This document shows positions 7,405-12,917 of a stretch of DNA of 64,000 bases, in pieces. The DNA is from Streptomyces sp. RPA4-2 (GTDB lineage Bacteria; Actinomycetota; Actinomycetes; Streptomycetales; Streptomycetaceae): NCBI RefSeq assembly GCF_012273515.2, contig NZ_CP050975.2, positions 5,146,001 to 5,210,000 of the forward strand, read 5' to 3'. The stretch's first letter is position 1; each line of letters opens with the position of its first letter. The translations under genes and the position numbers were made by a program. The notes beneath the pieces are model-generated. The model did no database searches and had not been told where the DNA came from. It saw nothing but the letters and a program-made list of their open reading frames with translations.

Positions 7405-7470
7405 CCGTGCGGGTCACGCCATCCAGCCGTGCGGGTCATGCGATCCAGCCGTGCGGGTCATGCCATCCAG
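7405..7470. repeat. three tandem 22-bp repeats
   Basis: Three adjacent copies (7405-7426, 7427-7448, 7449-7470) of a unit beginning CCGTGCGGGTCA and ending CATCCAG, differing by one or two bases. The last copy contains the stop codon and the final codons (WMA) of the PH-domain gene at 7458-8792, so the array looks like amplification of that gene's 3' end. Confidence 0.85.
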
Positions 7471-8792
7471 CGGTCCGGCCGGGCCTCCCGCCGCCCCGTC
7501 CGTGACCGGTCCGCCTGCGCCTGAAGAAGCTCCGCGGCCTCCGGGGCGCGGCGCAGCCGAGCCGTCACCGTCTTGCCGGCCCCGGTGTCCACATGGACGT
7601 CGGCGAGGCCGTGGAAGCGTTTCCAGGGCCCCTGCGTCAGCCGGACGCTCTGGACCTTCGCATGGGGTACGAGGGAGAGGCTGCGGCGCAGCAGGCCGTG
7701 GCGGGTGGCGAACACGGTGTCGGTGACGGCGATCCCGTACCCCCGCCACCAGAACGGCACGCACCACCCGGCCCGGCGCGGCGGCCGGGACAGGGCGGAC
7801 GGCACCGTCACTCCCGGCAGCACGCCCGCGACCACCGCCTCGGCGACCTCGCGCGGGGCGACCGGCACGAGGACGGAGTTGGACGACCCCGCCACGTCCA
7901 GCTCGACCCGTACCCACCCGCGCCGCCGCCACAGCAGCGGTTCGATGATCCGTACGGTCTGCACGCGCCCCGGCGGCACCGTCTCGTGCGTACGGTCGAG
8001 GAGGCCGTGGTCGATGCGGAGCCCGTCGGGGGAGTCGCCCACCGTCCAGTCGTACTCGCCGACGAACCGGCCCACGCTGCTCGCGCCCGCGGCGCCGAGC
8101 AGCGGCACCCCGGTCGCGAGGACCGACCACACGCTGTGGGTGGCGAACCAGAGCACGGGCGGTACGACGAGCGCGGCGGCCAGGGAGCCCCAGGTGGCGC
8201 CGGTGAGGACCAGGGAGACGGCCAGGACGCCCGCCGGGACGTGCAGCAGCCGCCGTACCGGGGCCTCGCCGACCTCGTGCGCCGTCTCCGGGGCGAAACC
8301 GGCCGCCCGGGCGAGGAGTTCGGCGCGCAGGGCGCGGGCGTCGTCCTCGCCGAGGAAGGCGAGTTCGTCCTTCTTGTGCGTCCCCACGACATCGAGTTTG
8401 AGTTTGGTGACACCCGCCACGCGGGCCAGCAGCGGCTGGGTGACGTCGACGGCCTGGAGGCGGTCGAGCCGGATGTGCGCGGTACGCCGGAAGAACAGGC
8501 CGGTGCGGATGCGCAGTTCCGTCTCGGTCACCGCGAAGTGCGTGAACCACCAGCTGAGGAAGCCGTAGAGGGCGGCCGCCGGGACGATCACGGCGAGCCC
8601 GATGAGCAGCGCCGTCGTCGTCAGCCGGGTCAGCTGCTCCTGCGCCTGATCGGGGTCGTGGACGGCCCAGCCGGCTATCACGGCGACGGGCGCCCAGGCC
8701 CTCCGGAACGGCGTCACGGGGTGCAGCCGCCGCTCGACCAGCGGCTTCTCCTCCCGCGCGGCGTCCTGCGGGCCCGGCGCCGGCGTCGTCAC
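7458..8792 (-). CDS. PH (bPH2)-domain membrane protein, YdbT-like
   Basis: A 444-residue membrane protein with two or three copies of the bacterial PH-like module (PF03703). The first follows a membrane hairpin ([23 protein letters not shown]) with [29 protein letters not shown]; a second begins near [34 protein letters not shown], and a third near [23 protein letters not shown]. This is the layout of B. subtilis YdbT. The start overlaps the stop of the shorter YdbS-like partner by 4 bp. YdbS/YdbT pairs are membrane proteins linked to protection against certain bacteriocins in Bacillus; the role in Streptomyces is not known. The 3' end carries a tandem repeat. Confidence 0.88.
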
Positions 8793-9292
8793 AGCCCCGC
8801 CGATCGGGCCTCGCCCAGCTCGGTCAGCCGGTCGCGCAGCCGCTCGGCCTCGGCCGGGTCCAGACCCGGGATGCGGGCGTCCGTCGCCGCGGCCGCCGTG
8901 TGCAGCTGCACGCTCGCGAGCCCGAAGTGCCGCTCGACGGGGCCGGAGGTCACCTCGACCAGCTGCATCCGGCCGTACGGCACCACGGTCTCCTCACGGA
9001 ACAGCACCCCCCGGCTGATCAGCAGGTCGTCCGCGCGCTCGGCGTACCGCCAGGAGCGCCAGTTGCGCCCCAGCATCCGCCAGCCCCAGCCCAGCAGAGC
9101 GAGCGGCAGCAGGGCGAAGGCGGCCCAGACCGGCCCCGCGAGCAGCCCCGGCAGGAGGGCCACGGCGATCGTCAGCAGCCCCAGCCACACCACCAGCAGC
9201 AGCCGGCGCATCCGCAGCAGACCCGGCGGCAGCCCGGTCCAGACAGGCTCCGAGGCGGTGTCGACCGCGGCTTCCGTGCTCCGCTTTTCCAT
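8789..9292 (-). CDS. PH (bPH2)-domain membrane protein, YdbS-like
   Basis: A 167-residue protein from ATG 9292 (MEKRSTEA) with two membrane helices ([20 protein letters not shown], then [18 protein letters not shown]) and one PF03703 module ([50 protein letters not shown]). It is the short first gene of the YdbS-YdbT pair, coupled to the longer partner by an ATGA overlap. Only 31 bp separate its start from the divergent nuoD2 start, so its promoter must overlap that of nuoD2 and the transcript is probably leaderless or nearly so. Confidence 0.88.
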
Positions 9293-9323
9293 GCCGCAAG
9301 GGTACGTACGCCAGACTGTGTCC

Positions 9324-10475
9324 ATGACTCCCAAGACGGAGACCACGATCGGTATCGGCGGCGCCGCGGAAAGCACCGACATGGTGCTCAACATCGGGCC
9401 CCAGCACCCGTCGACGCACGGCGTGCTGCGGCTGCGGCTCGTGCTCGACGGCGAACGGATCCAGCATGCGGAGCCGGTGATCGGCTATATGCATCGCGGT
9501 GCGGAGAAACTGTTCGAGGCGCGCGACTACCGCCAGATCGTCATGCTCGCCAACCGCCACGACTGGCTCTCGGCGTTCTCGAACGAGCTGGGTGTGGTGC
9601 TCGCCGTGGAGCGGATGCTCGGCATGGAGGTCCCCGAGCGCGCGGTGTGGCTGCGCACGCTGCTCGCGGAGCTCAACCGTGTCCTGAACCACCTGATGTT
9701 CCTGGGTTCCTACCCCCTGGAGCTGGGCGGGATCACGCCGATCTTCTACGCGTTCACGGAGCGCGAGGAGCTCCAGCACGTGATGGAGGAGATCTCCGGC
9801 GGGCGCATGCACTACATGTTCAACCGGGTCGGGGGCCTCAAGGAGGACCTCCCCGCCGGATGGACCACACGCGCGCGCGGCGCCGTCACCGCGCTGCGCT
9901 CGCGGATGGGCGTGTACGACGACCTGGTGCTCGGCAACGAGATCTTCCGGGGGCGCACGCGGGACGTGGGCGTCCTCGCACCGGCGGCCGTGCACGCGTA
10001 CGGCGTGAGCGGGCCGGTCGCGCGCGCCTCGGGGGTCGACTTCGACCTGCGCCGCGACGAGCCGTATCTGGCGTACGGCGAGCTCCAGGACACCCTGAAG
10101 GTCGTCACGCGGCAGGAGGGCGACTGCCTGGCCCGCTTCGAGTGCCTCCTGGAGCAGACGCACAACGCGCTGGACCTCGCGGACGCCTGTCTCGACCGGC
10201 TGGCCGAGCTGCCGCCCGGACCGGTCAACCAACGCCTCCCCAAGGTCCTCAAGGCGCCCGAGGGCCACACGTACGCCTGGACCGAGAACCCCCTCGGCAT
10301 CAACGGTTACTACCTGGTCAGCAAGGGCGAGAAGACCCCGTACCGGCTGAAGCTGCGCTCGGCCTCGTACAACAACATCCAGGCGCTGACCGAGCTGCTG
10401 CCGGGCACGCTGGTCGCGGACATGGTGGCGATCCTGGGATCACTGTTCTTCGTGGTCGGCGACATCGACAAGTAG
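9324..10475 (+). CDS. nuoD2: NADH-quinone oxidoreductase subunit D paralogue (orphan NuoD2)
   Basis: A 383-residue homologue of the 49-kDa/NuoD subunit that forms the quinone pocket of respiratory complex I. Recognisable blocks are [20 protein letters not shown] (about 22-41), [43 protein letters not shown], and the C-terminal [21 protein letters not shown] ... [20 protein letters not shown]. No other complex I gene is nearby, so this is not part of the nuo operon. By my alignment the loop NRHDWLSA corresponds to the RMDYLHS loop of Thermus Nqo4: the Arg is kept (Arg78) but the quinone-binding Tyr is Trp (Trp81). Start ATG 9324 lacks an obvious ribosome site. The 3' end overlaps the convergent methyltransferase gene. 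Confidence 0.9.
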
Positions 10476-11492
10476 CTCGGCGGGCAGGCCGTCGAACAGG
10501 GTGCGGCGGCCTGACCGGGGCACTCCCACCGGCTGCAGCAGCCAGCCGAAGTCGCCCAGGCCGCCGGGCGCGGTGAGCTCGGCGGCCTCGCCGGCACCCG
10601 CGAGGGCGCGTACGTACGCGGCAGGATCGCTCGAAGCCAGCGCGAGCGCCGGTCGGGCTCCGCTCACGCCCAGCGCGCGCAGCGCGGCCCGCTGGGTCAC
10701 CACGTGCCCCCCGGGCAGCGCGCACGCGTCGAGGGCGACGTGCGCCGTGATGTCGCACGACCCGTCGGGCACGGCCCGTGTCTCCCGGCCCTCGAGGAAG
10801 CCCGTGAGCGTCCCGAAGGGTGGCCGGGCGGCGGCGAGGTGGGCGTAGTCGACGGCGACGGCCAGACCCCGGTCGAGGGTGCCCACGGCTGCGGCCCAGG
10901 CCGTGTCCCTGGAGAGCCCGATCTCGGCGCGGGTCCCCTCGCCGGCCGCCGGCCACCACGCGCGCAGCCACCGCGCCTCGGCTCCGGCGACGGGCTCCCC
11001 GAGGCGTTCGGTCCCGTCCTCGGGCCGTACGAGAACCAGCCGCCGTACGCCCTCGGAGTCCACCTCCGCCACGTCCACCGGCACGTTGTCCAGCCACTCG
11101 TTGGCGAACAGCAGTCCGGTGGTCCCGCGCGGGGGCTCCGGGAGCCACTGGATCCGGGGGTCGAGTCCGGCGGGGCGACCGGCGCGTTCGACGGCGTACC
11201 CGCGCGCCCGGGAGGCCACGTCGGCGGGGAGCGCGGCGAGGACACCCGTCACCAGTTCGCCGTGACCGGCCGCCATGTCGACGAAGTCGAGCGCGGCGGG
11301 GCGGCCGAGGGCCGCGTCGACCCGGCACAGCAGCCGGGCCACGGCGGCCGCGAAGAGCGGGGAGGCGTGCACCGACGTACGGAAGTGGGCCGCGGGCCCC
11401 TCGGGCCTGCGGTAGAAGCCCGAGGGGCCGTACAGCGCCTCCTGTGCCGCCTCGCGCCAACCCCGCCACAAGCCCGCCGCCTCATGCCTCAC
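10440..11492 (-). CDS. MidA/NDUFAF7-type SAM-dependent methyltransferase (PF02636)
   Basis: A 350-residue class I methyltransferase of the Methyltransf_28 family. Diagnostic elements are the N-terminal [27 protein letters not shown], the SAM loop [20 protein letters not shown] (about 70-89), the family hallmark [12 protein letters not shown] and the late [13 protein letters not shown]. In mitochondria NDUFAF7 dimethylates an arginine of NDUFS2, the NuoD homologue, during complex I assembly; bacterial members are mostly unstudied. Here the gene is convergent with, and overlaps by 36 bp, an orphan nuoD, so NuoD2 is an obvious candidate substrate (inference). The length is somewhat shorter than the mitochondrial enzyme. 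Confidence 0.87.
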
Positions 11493-11501
11493 CGGGCCAG
11501 G

Positions 11502-11605
11502 CTAGGGCCTGTCGTTTGGATCAGGTGGCGCCAGGGCGGGGTGTCTTGCCAGGTGGGCCGAGCGGGCCCCGCGTCCCGCCACATGATCCAAACGGCAGGC
11601 CCTAG
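11502..11605. mobile_element. 104-bp MITE-like palindromic element
   Basis: Terminal inverted repeats of 22 bp at 11502-11523 and 11584-11605 match at 21 of 22 positions. Both ends begin CTAGGGCCTG and carry the core CGTTTGGATCA. The inner 60 bp is an imperfect continuation of the palindrome (GGTGGCG... mirrored by ...CGCCACA). The outer CTAG tetranucleotides could be a target duplication of the kind reported for IS5-type elements. It has no coding capacity. The ends resemble, as I recall, terminal repeats of Streptomyces IS5-family transposons, so a non-autonomous derivative is the best reading. It lies between the methyltransferase and histidine kinase starts and could affect their promoters. 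Confidence 0.7.
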
Positions 11606-11711
11606 GCGTCGGGAACGGGGAGAGCCTCCACCTTGGGGAGTACGAGCACCGCTCGCGGATCGGTCCTCCGGTTGACCCCTGCACACTGCACGCTTCCCTA
11701 CTCTGGGTTAC

Positions 11712-12917
11712 GTGCAGCGCCTTTATGACTTTCTCCGCAGACACCCGACGTGGGTCGACGGCTTCTGGGCCGTCGTCCTGCTCGGGATCTCCGCCGTGAG
11801 CCTCACCAAGGTCAACGGCGCTGCGAACCACCACGGGTCACTCGCGGCGGCCCTCCCGATCGCCCTGGTCCTGAGCCTGGTCGTGGCGCTGCGCCGCCGT
11901 ATGCCCGAGAAGATGCTGGTCCTGGCGGCCGCGATGGGCCTCGCCCAGCTGGTCCTGGACGTCGAGGTGGTGCCCGCCGACTTCGCGATGCTGGTGATCA
12001 TCTACACCGTCGCGGCGGACGGCGCCCGCTGGGCCTCCCGCTTCGCGCTGATCGGCGGCCTGTGCGCGGCGACCCTCTCGCAGATCCGCTGGCCCCAGCT
12101 GGACTCCGGCTCGCTGGGCAACATCCTGATAGCGGTCTTCCAGACGGTGCCGTTCGCGCTCGCCTGGGTGCTCGGCGACTCCGTCCGCACCCGCCGCGCC
12201 TATCTCGCCCAGCTGGAGGAGCGGGCCGCCCGGCTGGAGAAGGAGCGTGAGGCGCAGGCCAAGGTCGCCGTCGCCGCCGAGCGCGCCCGGATCGCCCGCG
12301 AGCTGCACGACGTGGTCGCGCACAACGTCTCGGTGATGGTGGTCCAGGCCGATGGCGCCGCTTACGTCATGGACACCGCCCCCGAGCAGGCGAGGAAGGC
12401 CCTGGAGACCATCTCCGGGACCGGCCGCCAGGCGCTCGCCGAGATGCGCCGCCTGCTCGGCGTCCTGCGCACCGGCGAACACCAGGAGGTCGGCGAGTAC
12501 GTGCCGCAGCCCGACGTGGAGCAGCTCGACGACCTCATCGAGCAGTGCCGCACCTCGGGGCTGCCCGTCGACTTCAAGGTCGAGGGGACGCCGCGGCCCC
12601 TGCCCAGCGGCGTGGAGCTCACGGCGTACCGCATCGTGCAGGAGGCGCTCACCAACACGCGCAAGCACGGGGGCCCGAACATCGGCGCGAGTGTGCGCCT
12701 GGTCTACTTCGACGACGGCCTCGGCCTGCTCGTCGAGGACGACGGCAAGGGCGCGCCCCACGAGCTGTACGAGGAGGGGGGCGCCGACGGGCAGGGGCAC
12801 GGTCTGATCGGGATGCGCGAGCGCGTCGGCATGGTCGGCGGCACCCTGGACGCGGGGCCGCGGCCCGGTGGAGGCTTCCGCATCAGTGCCCTGCTGCCGC
12901 TCAAGCCAGCGCCCTGA
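11712..12917 (+). CDS. sensor histidine kinase, NarL/DesK class
   Basis: A 401-residue membrane kinase starting at GTG 11712. Four or five N-terminal helices (about 15-155) form the sensor, a short coiled coil follows (LEERAARLEKEREAQAKVAV), then the HisKA_3 box ERARIARELHDVVAHNVSVMVV with the phospho-acceptor His at about 199. The C-terminal HATPase_c domain has LVEDDGKGAP, GQGHGLIGMRERVGMVGG and GGGFRISALLPL. It is immediately followed by the cognate response regulator 62 bp downstream. No extracellular ligand domain is present, so the signal is probably membrane-borne; the target genes are unknown. Confidence 0.92.
   Translation: MQRLYDFLRRHPTWVDGFWAVVLLGISAVSLTKVNGAANHHGSLAAALPIALVLSLVVALRRRMPEKMLVLAAAMGLAQLVLDVEVVPADFAMLVIIYTVAADGARWASRFALIGGLCAATLSQIRWPQLDSGSLGNILIAVFQTVPFALAWVLGDSVRTRRAYLAQLEERAARLEKEREAQAKVAVAAERARIARELHDVVAHNVSVMVVQADGAAYVMDTAPEQARKALETISGTGRQALAEMRRLLGVLRTGEHQEVGEYVPQPDVEQLDDLIEQCRTSGLPVDFKVEGTPRPLPSGVELTAYRIVQEALTNTRKHGGPNIGASVRLVYFDDGLGLLVEDDGKGAPHELYEEGGADGQGHGLIGMRERVGMVGGTLDAGPRPGGGFRISALLPLKPAP

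Follow-up and report, generated by a model that had tools for sequence, protein, structure and literature searches.

The window analysed here, a stretch of 64,000 nucleotides from Streptomyces sp. RPA4-2, contains two convergent genes that overlap by 36 bp, nuoD2 and a gene encoding a MidA/NDUFAF7-like methyltransferase (Table 1). The open reading frames and their coordinates agree with the original prediction, and Pfam searches confirm both assignments. NuoD2 matches PF00346 with 233 bits, above the cut-off, and carries the HRGxE motif, as do complex I D (49-kDa) subunits. Its match to PF00374, the family of [NiFe] hydrogenase large subunits, reaches 19.4 bits and stays below the cut-off of 25.8, and we rejected this identity. 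The methyltransferase matches PF02636 with 57.2 bits (cut-off 23.3). The genome comprises 9.86 Mb in one contig, in which we found two NuoD genes and a single PF02636 gene.

Table 1. Features of the nuoD2/methyltransferase locus, numbered by window position.
Feature	Position	Strand	Evidence
nuoD2, 383-aa D (49-kDa) subunit of the second complex I	9324..10475	+	ORF + PF00346
MidA/NDUFAF7-like PF02636 methyltransferase, 350 aa, GTG start as listed	10440..11492	-	ORF + Pfam
Convergent overlap of nuoD2 and the methyltransferase gene, 36 bp	10440..10475	.	
Arg58 codon, HRG motif; proposed methylation site; equivalent to human Arg85/Yarrowia R121	9495..9497	+	
Arg78 codon (CGC), NRHDWLSA; equivalent to Yarrowia R141 by offset of 20	9555..9557	+	
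Trp81 codon; replaces quinone-binding Tyr (T. thermophilus Y87/Yarrowia Y144)	9564..9566	+	
His32 codon; counterpart of quinone-site histidine	9417..9419	+	
Methyltransferase loop, residues 71-80, presumably SAM-binding; consensus VDVGAGxGEL	11253..11282	-	
Glu132 to Asp135 of ANEWLDNVP in the methyltransferase	11088..11099	-	
Two bPH_2-domain genes	7458-8792 and 8789-9292 (7458..9292)	-	

A scan of named genomes returned 80 loci, 79 from Streptomyces and one from an 'Actinobacteria bacterium', and close relatives of our locus are Streptomyces. The methyltransferase gene lies near D2 in 78 of these loci; the other two stop 50 and 150 bases past D2. The overlap is not universal, not even within Streptomyces: exactly 36 bp are shared in 21 of 67 convergent named loci, the other 46 having a gap instead, and in 7 of 14 convergent loci from our class sample (window included). 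The bPH_2 gene pair accompanies nuoD2 and the methyltransferase gene in many families, flanking or often separating them. A 29-bp inverted repeat, with arms 93% complementary and 46 nt apart, is located between the methyltransferase and a histidine kinase gene (window 11502-11605), and the 18-base motif of its arms occurs at this single place in the genome. Our promoter and terminator scan of positions 9000-11750 found none.

We compared an AlphaFold model of the methyltransferase (pTM 0.91) to known structures. The top six Foldseek matches are 4g67, 4f3n, 1zkd (two chains), 5zu0 and 5ztz, with TMq values of 0.71-0.77, and all matches with E below 1e-15 are COG1565/MidA-type structures (5zu0, E 7e-17). 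The model thus predicts a MidA/COG1565 fold. In sequence the solved relatives are distant, with phmmer E values of 0.015 for 1zkd and 0.85 for the NDUFAF7 homologue 5ztz. Glu132, Leu134 and Asp135 are invariant in 31/31 aligned relatives, and the consensus contains a GAGxG-type loop, which by family we take to bind SAM. Presumably, 5zu0 and 5ztz are the MidA entries from Dictyostelium. The title of entry 5zu0 speaks of a proteobacterial origin of this methylation, a claim against which the spread of PF02636 across Actinomycetota (45 of 149 genomes drawn from the phylum) should be weighed.

The original prediction equated human Arg85 with Arg78 of NuoD2; our alignments identify Arg58 instead. 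NDUFAF7 dimethylates human Arg85, the C-terminal residue of the peptide KCDPHIGLLHR, with Gly-86 next in the chain (PMC3829151). The human LLHR|G junction aligns with GYMHRG of NuoD2, and in PDB alignments the HRG arginine lies opposite Arg58: query residue 19 pairs with residue 46 of the human chain and the alignment continues ungapped, so that 58 corresponds to 85. In Yarrowia, R121 is dimethylated and R141 is a separate arginine (PMC8042128). Arg78 is found 20 residues past Arg58 and thus corresponds to R141, not to the dimethylated R121; it is kept in NuoD1 and NuoD2 alike. For the NDUFAF7/MidA family, the D-subunit arginine in the HRG motif is the established substrate (PMC3829151). The hope that the gene pair might bear on the origin of the modification has to take into account that a bacterial complex I, that of Paracoccus denitrificans, is already known to be dimethylated at the same arginine (PMC3750175). 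The E. coli D subunit contains this arginine in unmethylated form (PMC8042128), and the residue by itself is therefore no proof of the mark. A control search for PF02636 yielded no gene in E. coli.

We located the genes for complex I elsewhere in the genome. The main nuo operon is found at about 5.31 Mb of contig C1, with NuoD1 reading LHTG and NuoB1 reading VAGR. A second cluster, nuo2, at about 5.358-5.369 Mb and about 200 kb from nuoD2, encodes A2, B2 (VSGT), C2 and H2-N2, and is without D, E, F and G. None of the 40 class nuo2 loci that we read, several of which end at contig ends, has a D gene of its own; the D1 gene in one of them (L215) is part of the adjoining main operon. In 16 of the 24 best-scoring loci from other classes of the phylum, C2, D2 and H2 follow one another directly, and E, F and G are missing between them. 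A second NuoE, F or G was found neither in the nuo2 cluster nor within the window or the D2 loci read; near nuo2 in L216 there is a NuoF-like piece (40%). The nuo2 cluster and NuoD2 together provide A-D and H-N, an 11-subunit set. By this gene complement NuoD2 is the D subunit absent from the nuo2 cluster and hence no functional orphan, so that its description as isolated holds for the locus and fails for the function. Nor is the gene pair a survivor of the main nuo operon, as had been suggested: NuoD2 belongs to the second complex I, and NuoD1 has a threonine at the methylation site. In print, the nuo2 cluster and nuoD2 have been named in Streptomyces ambofaciens, where nuoD2 again lies apart from nuo2, and NuoL2 and NuoM2 have been proposed to exchange into the main complex I (PMC8388888).

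The subunits of the second complex retain much of the expected cofactor and pump chemistry. The four cysteines of cluster N2 are present in 41/41 NuoB2 sequences (CCCC), and NuoI2 of our strain contains two ferredoxin (Fe4S4) motifs whose cysteines are largely kept relative to E. coli. The residues that we checked in L2, M2, N2 and K2, and which we take to function in pumping, are kept with respect to E. coli, the exception being H305 of NuoN, which is a Gln. Two of the E. coli residues checked in NuoH2, of similarly presumed function, are changed: R37 is His and E216 is Val. Outside both nuo clusters, the genome contains a third NuoB-like (PF01058) gene (C1:7992753-7993103).

We next asked how closely methyltransferase and NuoD2 co-occur. 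A draw of 196 genomes from the class was searched with NuoD2, PF02636, NuoB2 and a methyltransferase profile. A match was counted as a NuoD2 orthologue if it was full-length, had an E value no higher than 3e-67 and stood apart from the split NuoD1 matches. At least 80 genomes have NuoD2. Taking NuoD2 among the matches listed, the methyltransferase is found in 74 of the 80 genomes with and in 4 of the 116 without it (Fisher p = 2e-41, kinship ignored); 72 of the 74 genes lie within the D2 stretch read and two on another contig (G067, G071). As the test ignores kinship, joint loss within families is the better evidence: among the matches listed, 8 genomes of family f15 contain both genes and 10 neither, with corresponding numbers of 1 and 16 in f16 and 3 and 1 in f28. 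PF02636 alone missed four D2-adjacent enzymes that were found by tblastn (G018, G111, G113, G169). Ten weak profile matches to short pieces (E 3e-5 to 8e-4; G038, G051, G072, G087, G118, G135, G145, G153, G154, G171) were not counted because we take them as generic methyltransferase matches. In a phylum draw of 149 genomes, 136 of them from other classes, we counted by hand, requiring a full-length match of at least 45% identity for a D2-like protein. PF02636 was detected in 33 of the 49 other-class genomes with such a match, with no match in the remaining 16, and in 6 of the 87 without (G197, G212, G222, G226, G234, G277). The co-occurrence that had been predicted thus extends beyond close Streptomyces, to 24 of the 26 class-draw families having NuoD2 (among the matches listed) and to other classes. 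Together with linkage, it lends good genomic support to the idea of an enzyme-substrate pair, with Arg58 and not Arg78 as the target. Across many Actinomycetota families, MidA-type enzymes hence accompany one complex I paralogue rather than the other.

Neither gene strictly implies the other. A rule that the methyltransferase occurs only with D2 is broken by four D2-less class genomes that match the family profile strongly. In two of these (G059, G004) the matches are at contig ends; in the other two (G066, G146) the protein is a 252-aa form with AGDWLAHVP or AVDWLCHVP instead of ANEWLDNVP, in which we recognised no SAM loop by eye. The converse rule, that an arginine on D entails the methyltransferase, is broken by six class genomes, whose D2 loci contain none by the class-built profile (G110, G182, G156, G100, G120, G138), and by 13 of the 24 best other-class D2 genomes, in which PF02636 has no match (families f45, f46, f49, f68, f76). 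Arg58 is kept in all of them, and in the 13 other-class genomes D2 is inside the operon. Since Arg58 is kept where no enzyme is detected, the residue appears to have a role of its own, with methylation as a refinement, and some lineages may do without Arg58 methylation or achieve it by other means. The same genomes, and the sequence distance of the enzyme from its solved relatives, could also be taken to mean that the methyltransferase acts on another NuoD2 residue or on another protein of the second complex, such as NuoB2, and that Arg58 stays unmethylated as in E. coli. We regard this as unlikely, since the family's established substrate is the D-subunit HRG arginine (PMC3829151) and since, in the class, the enzyme accompanies the complex with the D2 arginine and hardly ever the one with the D1 threonine alone.

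Arg58 of NuoD2 as the probable target is set in a residue exchange with subunit B beside cluster N2. We analysed NuoD2 from all 80 class genomes counted as NuoD2-bearing among the matches listed, NuoD1 from 20 loci, one further locus and our strain, and NuoB2 from 40 loci of a longer list and our strain. The D-subunit site is Thr in 22/22 NuoD1 and Arg (Arg58) in 80/80 class NuoD2 among the matches listed, and the B-subunit site is Arg in 21/21 NuoB1 and Thr in 41/41 NuoB2. The swap is without exception. An Arg/Thr exchange between the D and B subunits has been described for Yarrowia versus Thermus, with Yarrowia carrying the Thr in subunit B, as NuoB2 does, and Thermus having Thr at the R121 site and an Arg of subunit B in the same space (PMC8042128). 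From these residues, it seems that one cell holds both a methylatable and a non-methylatable complex I. In the literature that we searched, we saw bacterial nuoD2 linked neither to PF02636 genes nor to an arginine switch between paralogous complexes. It is very unlikely that NuoD2 serves the main complex I as a spare D subunit, swapped with NuoD1 under some conditions: the separation of nuoD2 from nuo2 in Streptomyces would fit such a role, but NuoD2 combined with NuoB1 would bring two arginines to one place by N2, NuoB2 has the matching Thr, and D2 resides within the nuo2 operon in other classes.

A second difference between NuoD1 and NuoD2, the D subunit of the second complex, concerns the quinone site. 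Position 81 is Trp in 80/80 class NuoD2 among the matches listed and in 24/24 D2 proteins of other classes (L357-L380), and it is Tyr in 22/22 NuoD1. The usual quinone-site tyrosine, which binds the quinone head group (PMC8119997), is thus replaced in NuoD2, and the Tyr-to-Trp change marks out a complex I subclass. His32 is retained in 75 of the 80 NuoD2 among the matches listed and is Asn, Gln or Thr in the other five. Given Trp81, ordinary quinone reduction by the second complex is uncertain.

We then compared gene order outside the class. In eight other-class genomes (G210, G224, G256, G276, G286, G305, G314, G319), coordinates place the methyltransferase gene on the strand of D2, 7.7-8.4 kb downstream, and it adjoins the N2 gene in 3/3 of their loci that we read (L339, L350, L352). 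In family f44, among the 24 best, the enzyme gene is convergent on D2 at a distance of 0.2-6.9 kb in 7 of 8 genomes, and in the eighth (G290) the two are on different contigs; in this family the 4 kb read at D2 contain no further nuo2 gene. In Streptomyces, D2 and the enzyme gene lie together apart from nuo2; the link between D2 and methylase thus likely predates this arrangement. That the linkage is inherited gene order around a housekeeping methyltransferase with no functional tie, as the conserved surroundings within Streptomyces might suggest, is extremely improbable, because linkage persists while order, orientation and intervening genes vary between families, because both genes are lost together within three families, and because the enzyme adjoins N2 of the nuo operon in the three loci above.

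Subunit identity, residue swap, linkage and co-occurrence are seen in the sequences themselves; methylation, ferredoxin input and a quinone as acceptor are what we infer. We consider it probable that NuoD2 is part of a second complex I with a gene cluster free of the NADH module, and that this complex has a dedicated PF02636 methylase for Arg58 and transfers electrons from ferredoxin to menaquinone. nuoD2 would have been relocated from its nuo2 operon in this lineage, and its product would complete a complex of 11 subunits (A2, B2, C2, D2 and H2-N2). The PF02636 protein most likely dimethylates Arg58 symmetrically during assembly, and the modified side chain may pack against cluster N2 in NuoB2; in the Thermus-type main complex, the arginine of NuoB1 would be used there instead. 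As the nuo2 cluster contains no NuoE, F or G, another electron donor is likely needed. The neighbouring 2-oxoacid oxidoreductase KorAB would probably supply the electrons by reducing ferredoxin, and they would move on to menaquinone via a site where Trp replaces Tyr. In our genome, the KorAB genes (L007, 10624-13627) run opposite to nuo2 and lie about 4.6 kb upstream of it, with regulator genes in between. Of 40 loci, 25 have KorA, mostly together with KorB, next to nuo2 on the opposite strand; in the other 15, some of which are at contig ends, KorAB is absent near nuo2. KorAB is thus a candidate for the electron source. In S. coelicolor, SCO4594 has been named an alpha-ketoglutarate ferredoxin oxidoreductase (PMC8981147), and SCO4599-4608, which have been called NADH dehydrogenase subunits (PMC9739823), are taken here as the nuo2 cluster of that species, near SCO4594.

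Some genomes have a reduced second complex. In seven genomes of families f14 and f15 (G141, G014, G047, G032, G093, G103, G013), the one NuoH found belongs to the main type (40-44% to NuoH2), and none of the NuoL found exceeds 41% to NuoL2. All seven keep D2, B2 and the methyltransferase. C2 and I2 were seen in five reduced genomes (L220-L224), and the G014 locus (L219) shows B2 and C2 before the contig ends. G141 is assembled as one contig; the other six are draft assemblies. In the single-contig genome G026 (L207), nuo2 comprises A2, B2, C2 and I2 with NuoH2 as a remnant and no intact nuo2-type NuoL, and D2 and the methyltransferase are kept. G082 and G175, which looked reduced in the stretch read, were rejected because H2 and L2 are present. 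The genomes without a second membrane arm suggest a docking module: B2, C2, D2, I2 and the methylase might form a self-contained, interchangeable quinone-module that docks on the main membrane arm with electrons from ferredoxin, Trp81 and the methylated arginine retuning the N2/quinone chemistry. We offer this as a tentative and rather doubtful extension.

The proposed second complex can be compared with known systems. It resembles the action of NDUFAF7/MidA on Arg85 of NDUFS2 in human and Dictyostelium in the PF02636 fold and motifs and in the HRG arginine on subunit D. It differs in being bacterial, in concerning one of two complexes I, with a cluster that lacks the NADH module, in the replacement of the quinone Tyr by Trp, and in the linkage of enzyme gene and substrate gene. 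Mitochondria need the methylase for assembly, so that any catalytic role of the dimethylarginine is masked there. Streptomyces may offer a possibly dispensable second complex and a single PF02636 gene with which to study dimethylarginine beside N2, and the same cell provides a natural counterpart in which the same problem is solved by an arginine on the other subunit. The known 11-subunit complexes (NuoABCDHIJKLMN without NuoEFG), whose donor is thought to be ferredoxin-linked, are similar to nuo2 plus NuoD2; here, such a set occurs in Streptomyces and other actinobacteria, alongside a 14-subunit complex and a methylase gene. The complex I of Paracoccus denitrificans consists of 14 subunits, is driven by NADH and uses ubiquinone. 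It is bacterial too, and the arginine mark was observed there (PMC3750175), whereas we propose it from sequence, for a second complex whose cluster has no NADH module and which exists beside an unmethylatable one. The S. ambofaciens report deals with the same genes, and its available text mentions neither the methyltransferase link nor the arginine swap (PMC8388888).

Two NuoD2-less genomes of one family (L382, 2071-2829; L383, 2002-2760) encode a shortened relative of the methyltransferase that lacks the catalytic motif and is likely a pseudoenzyme. The gene beside it has, by eye, the look of a Rossmann-type reductase.
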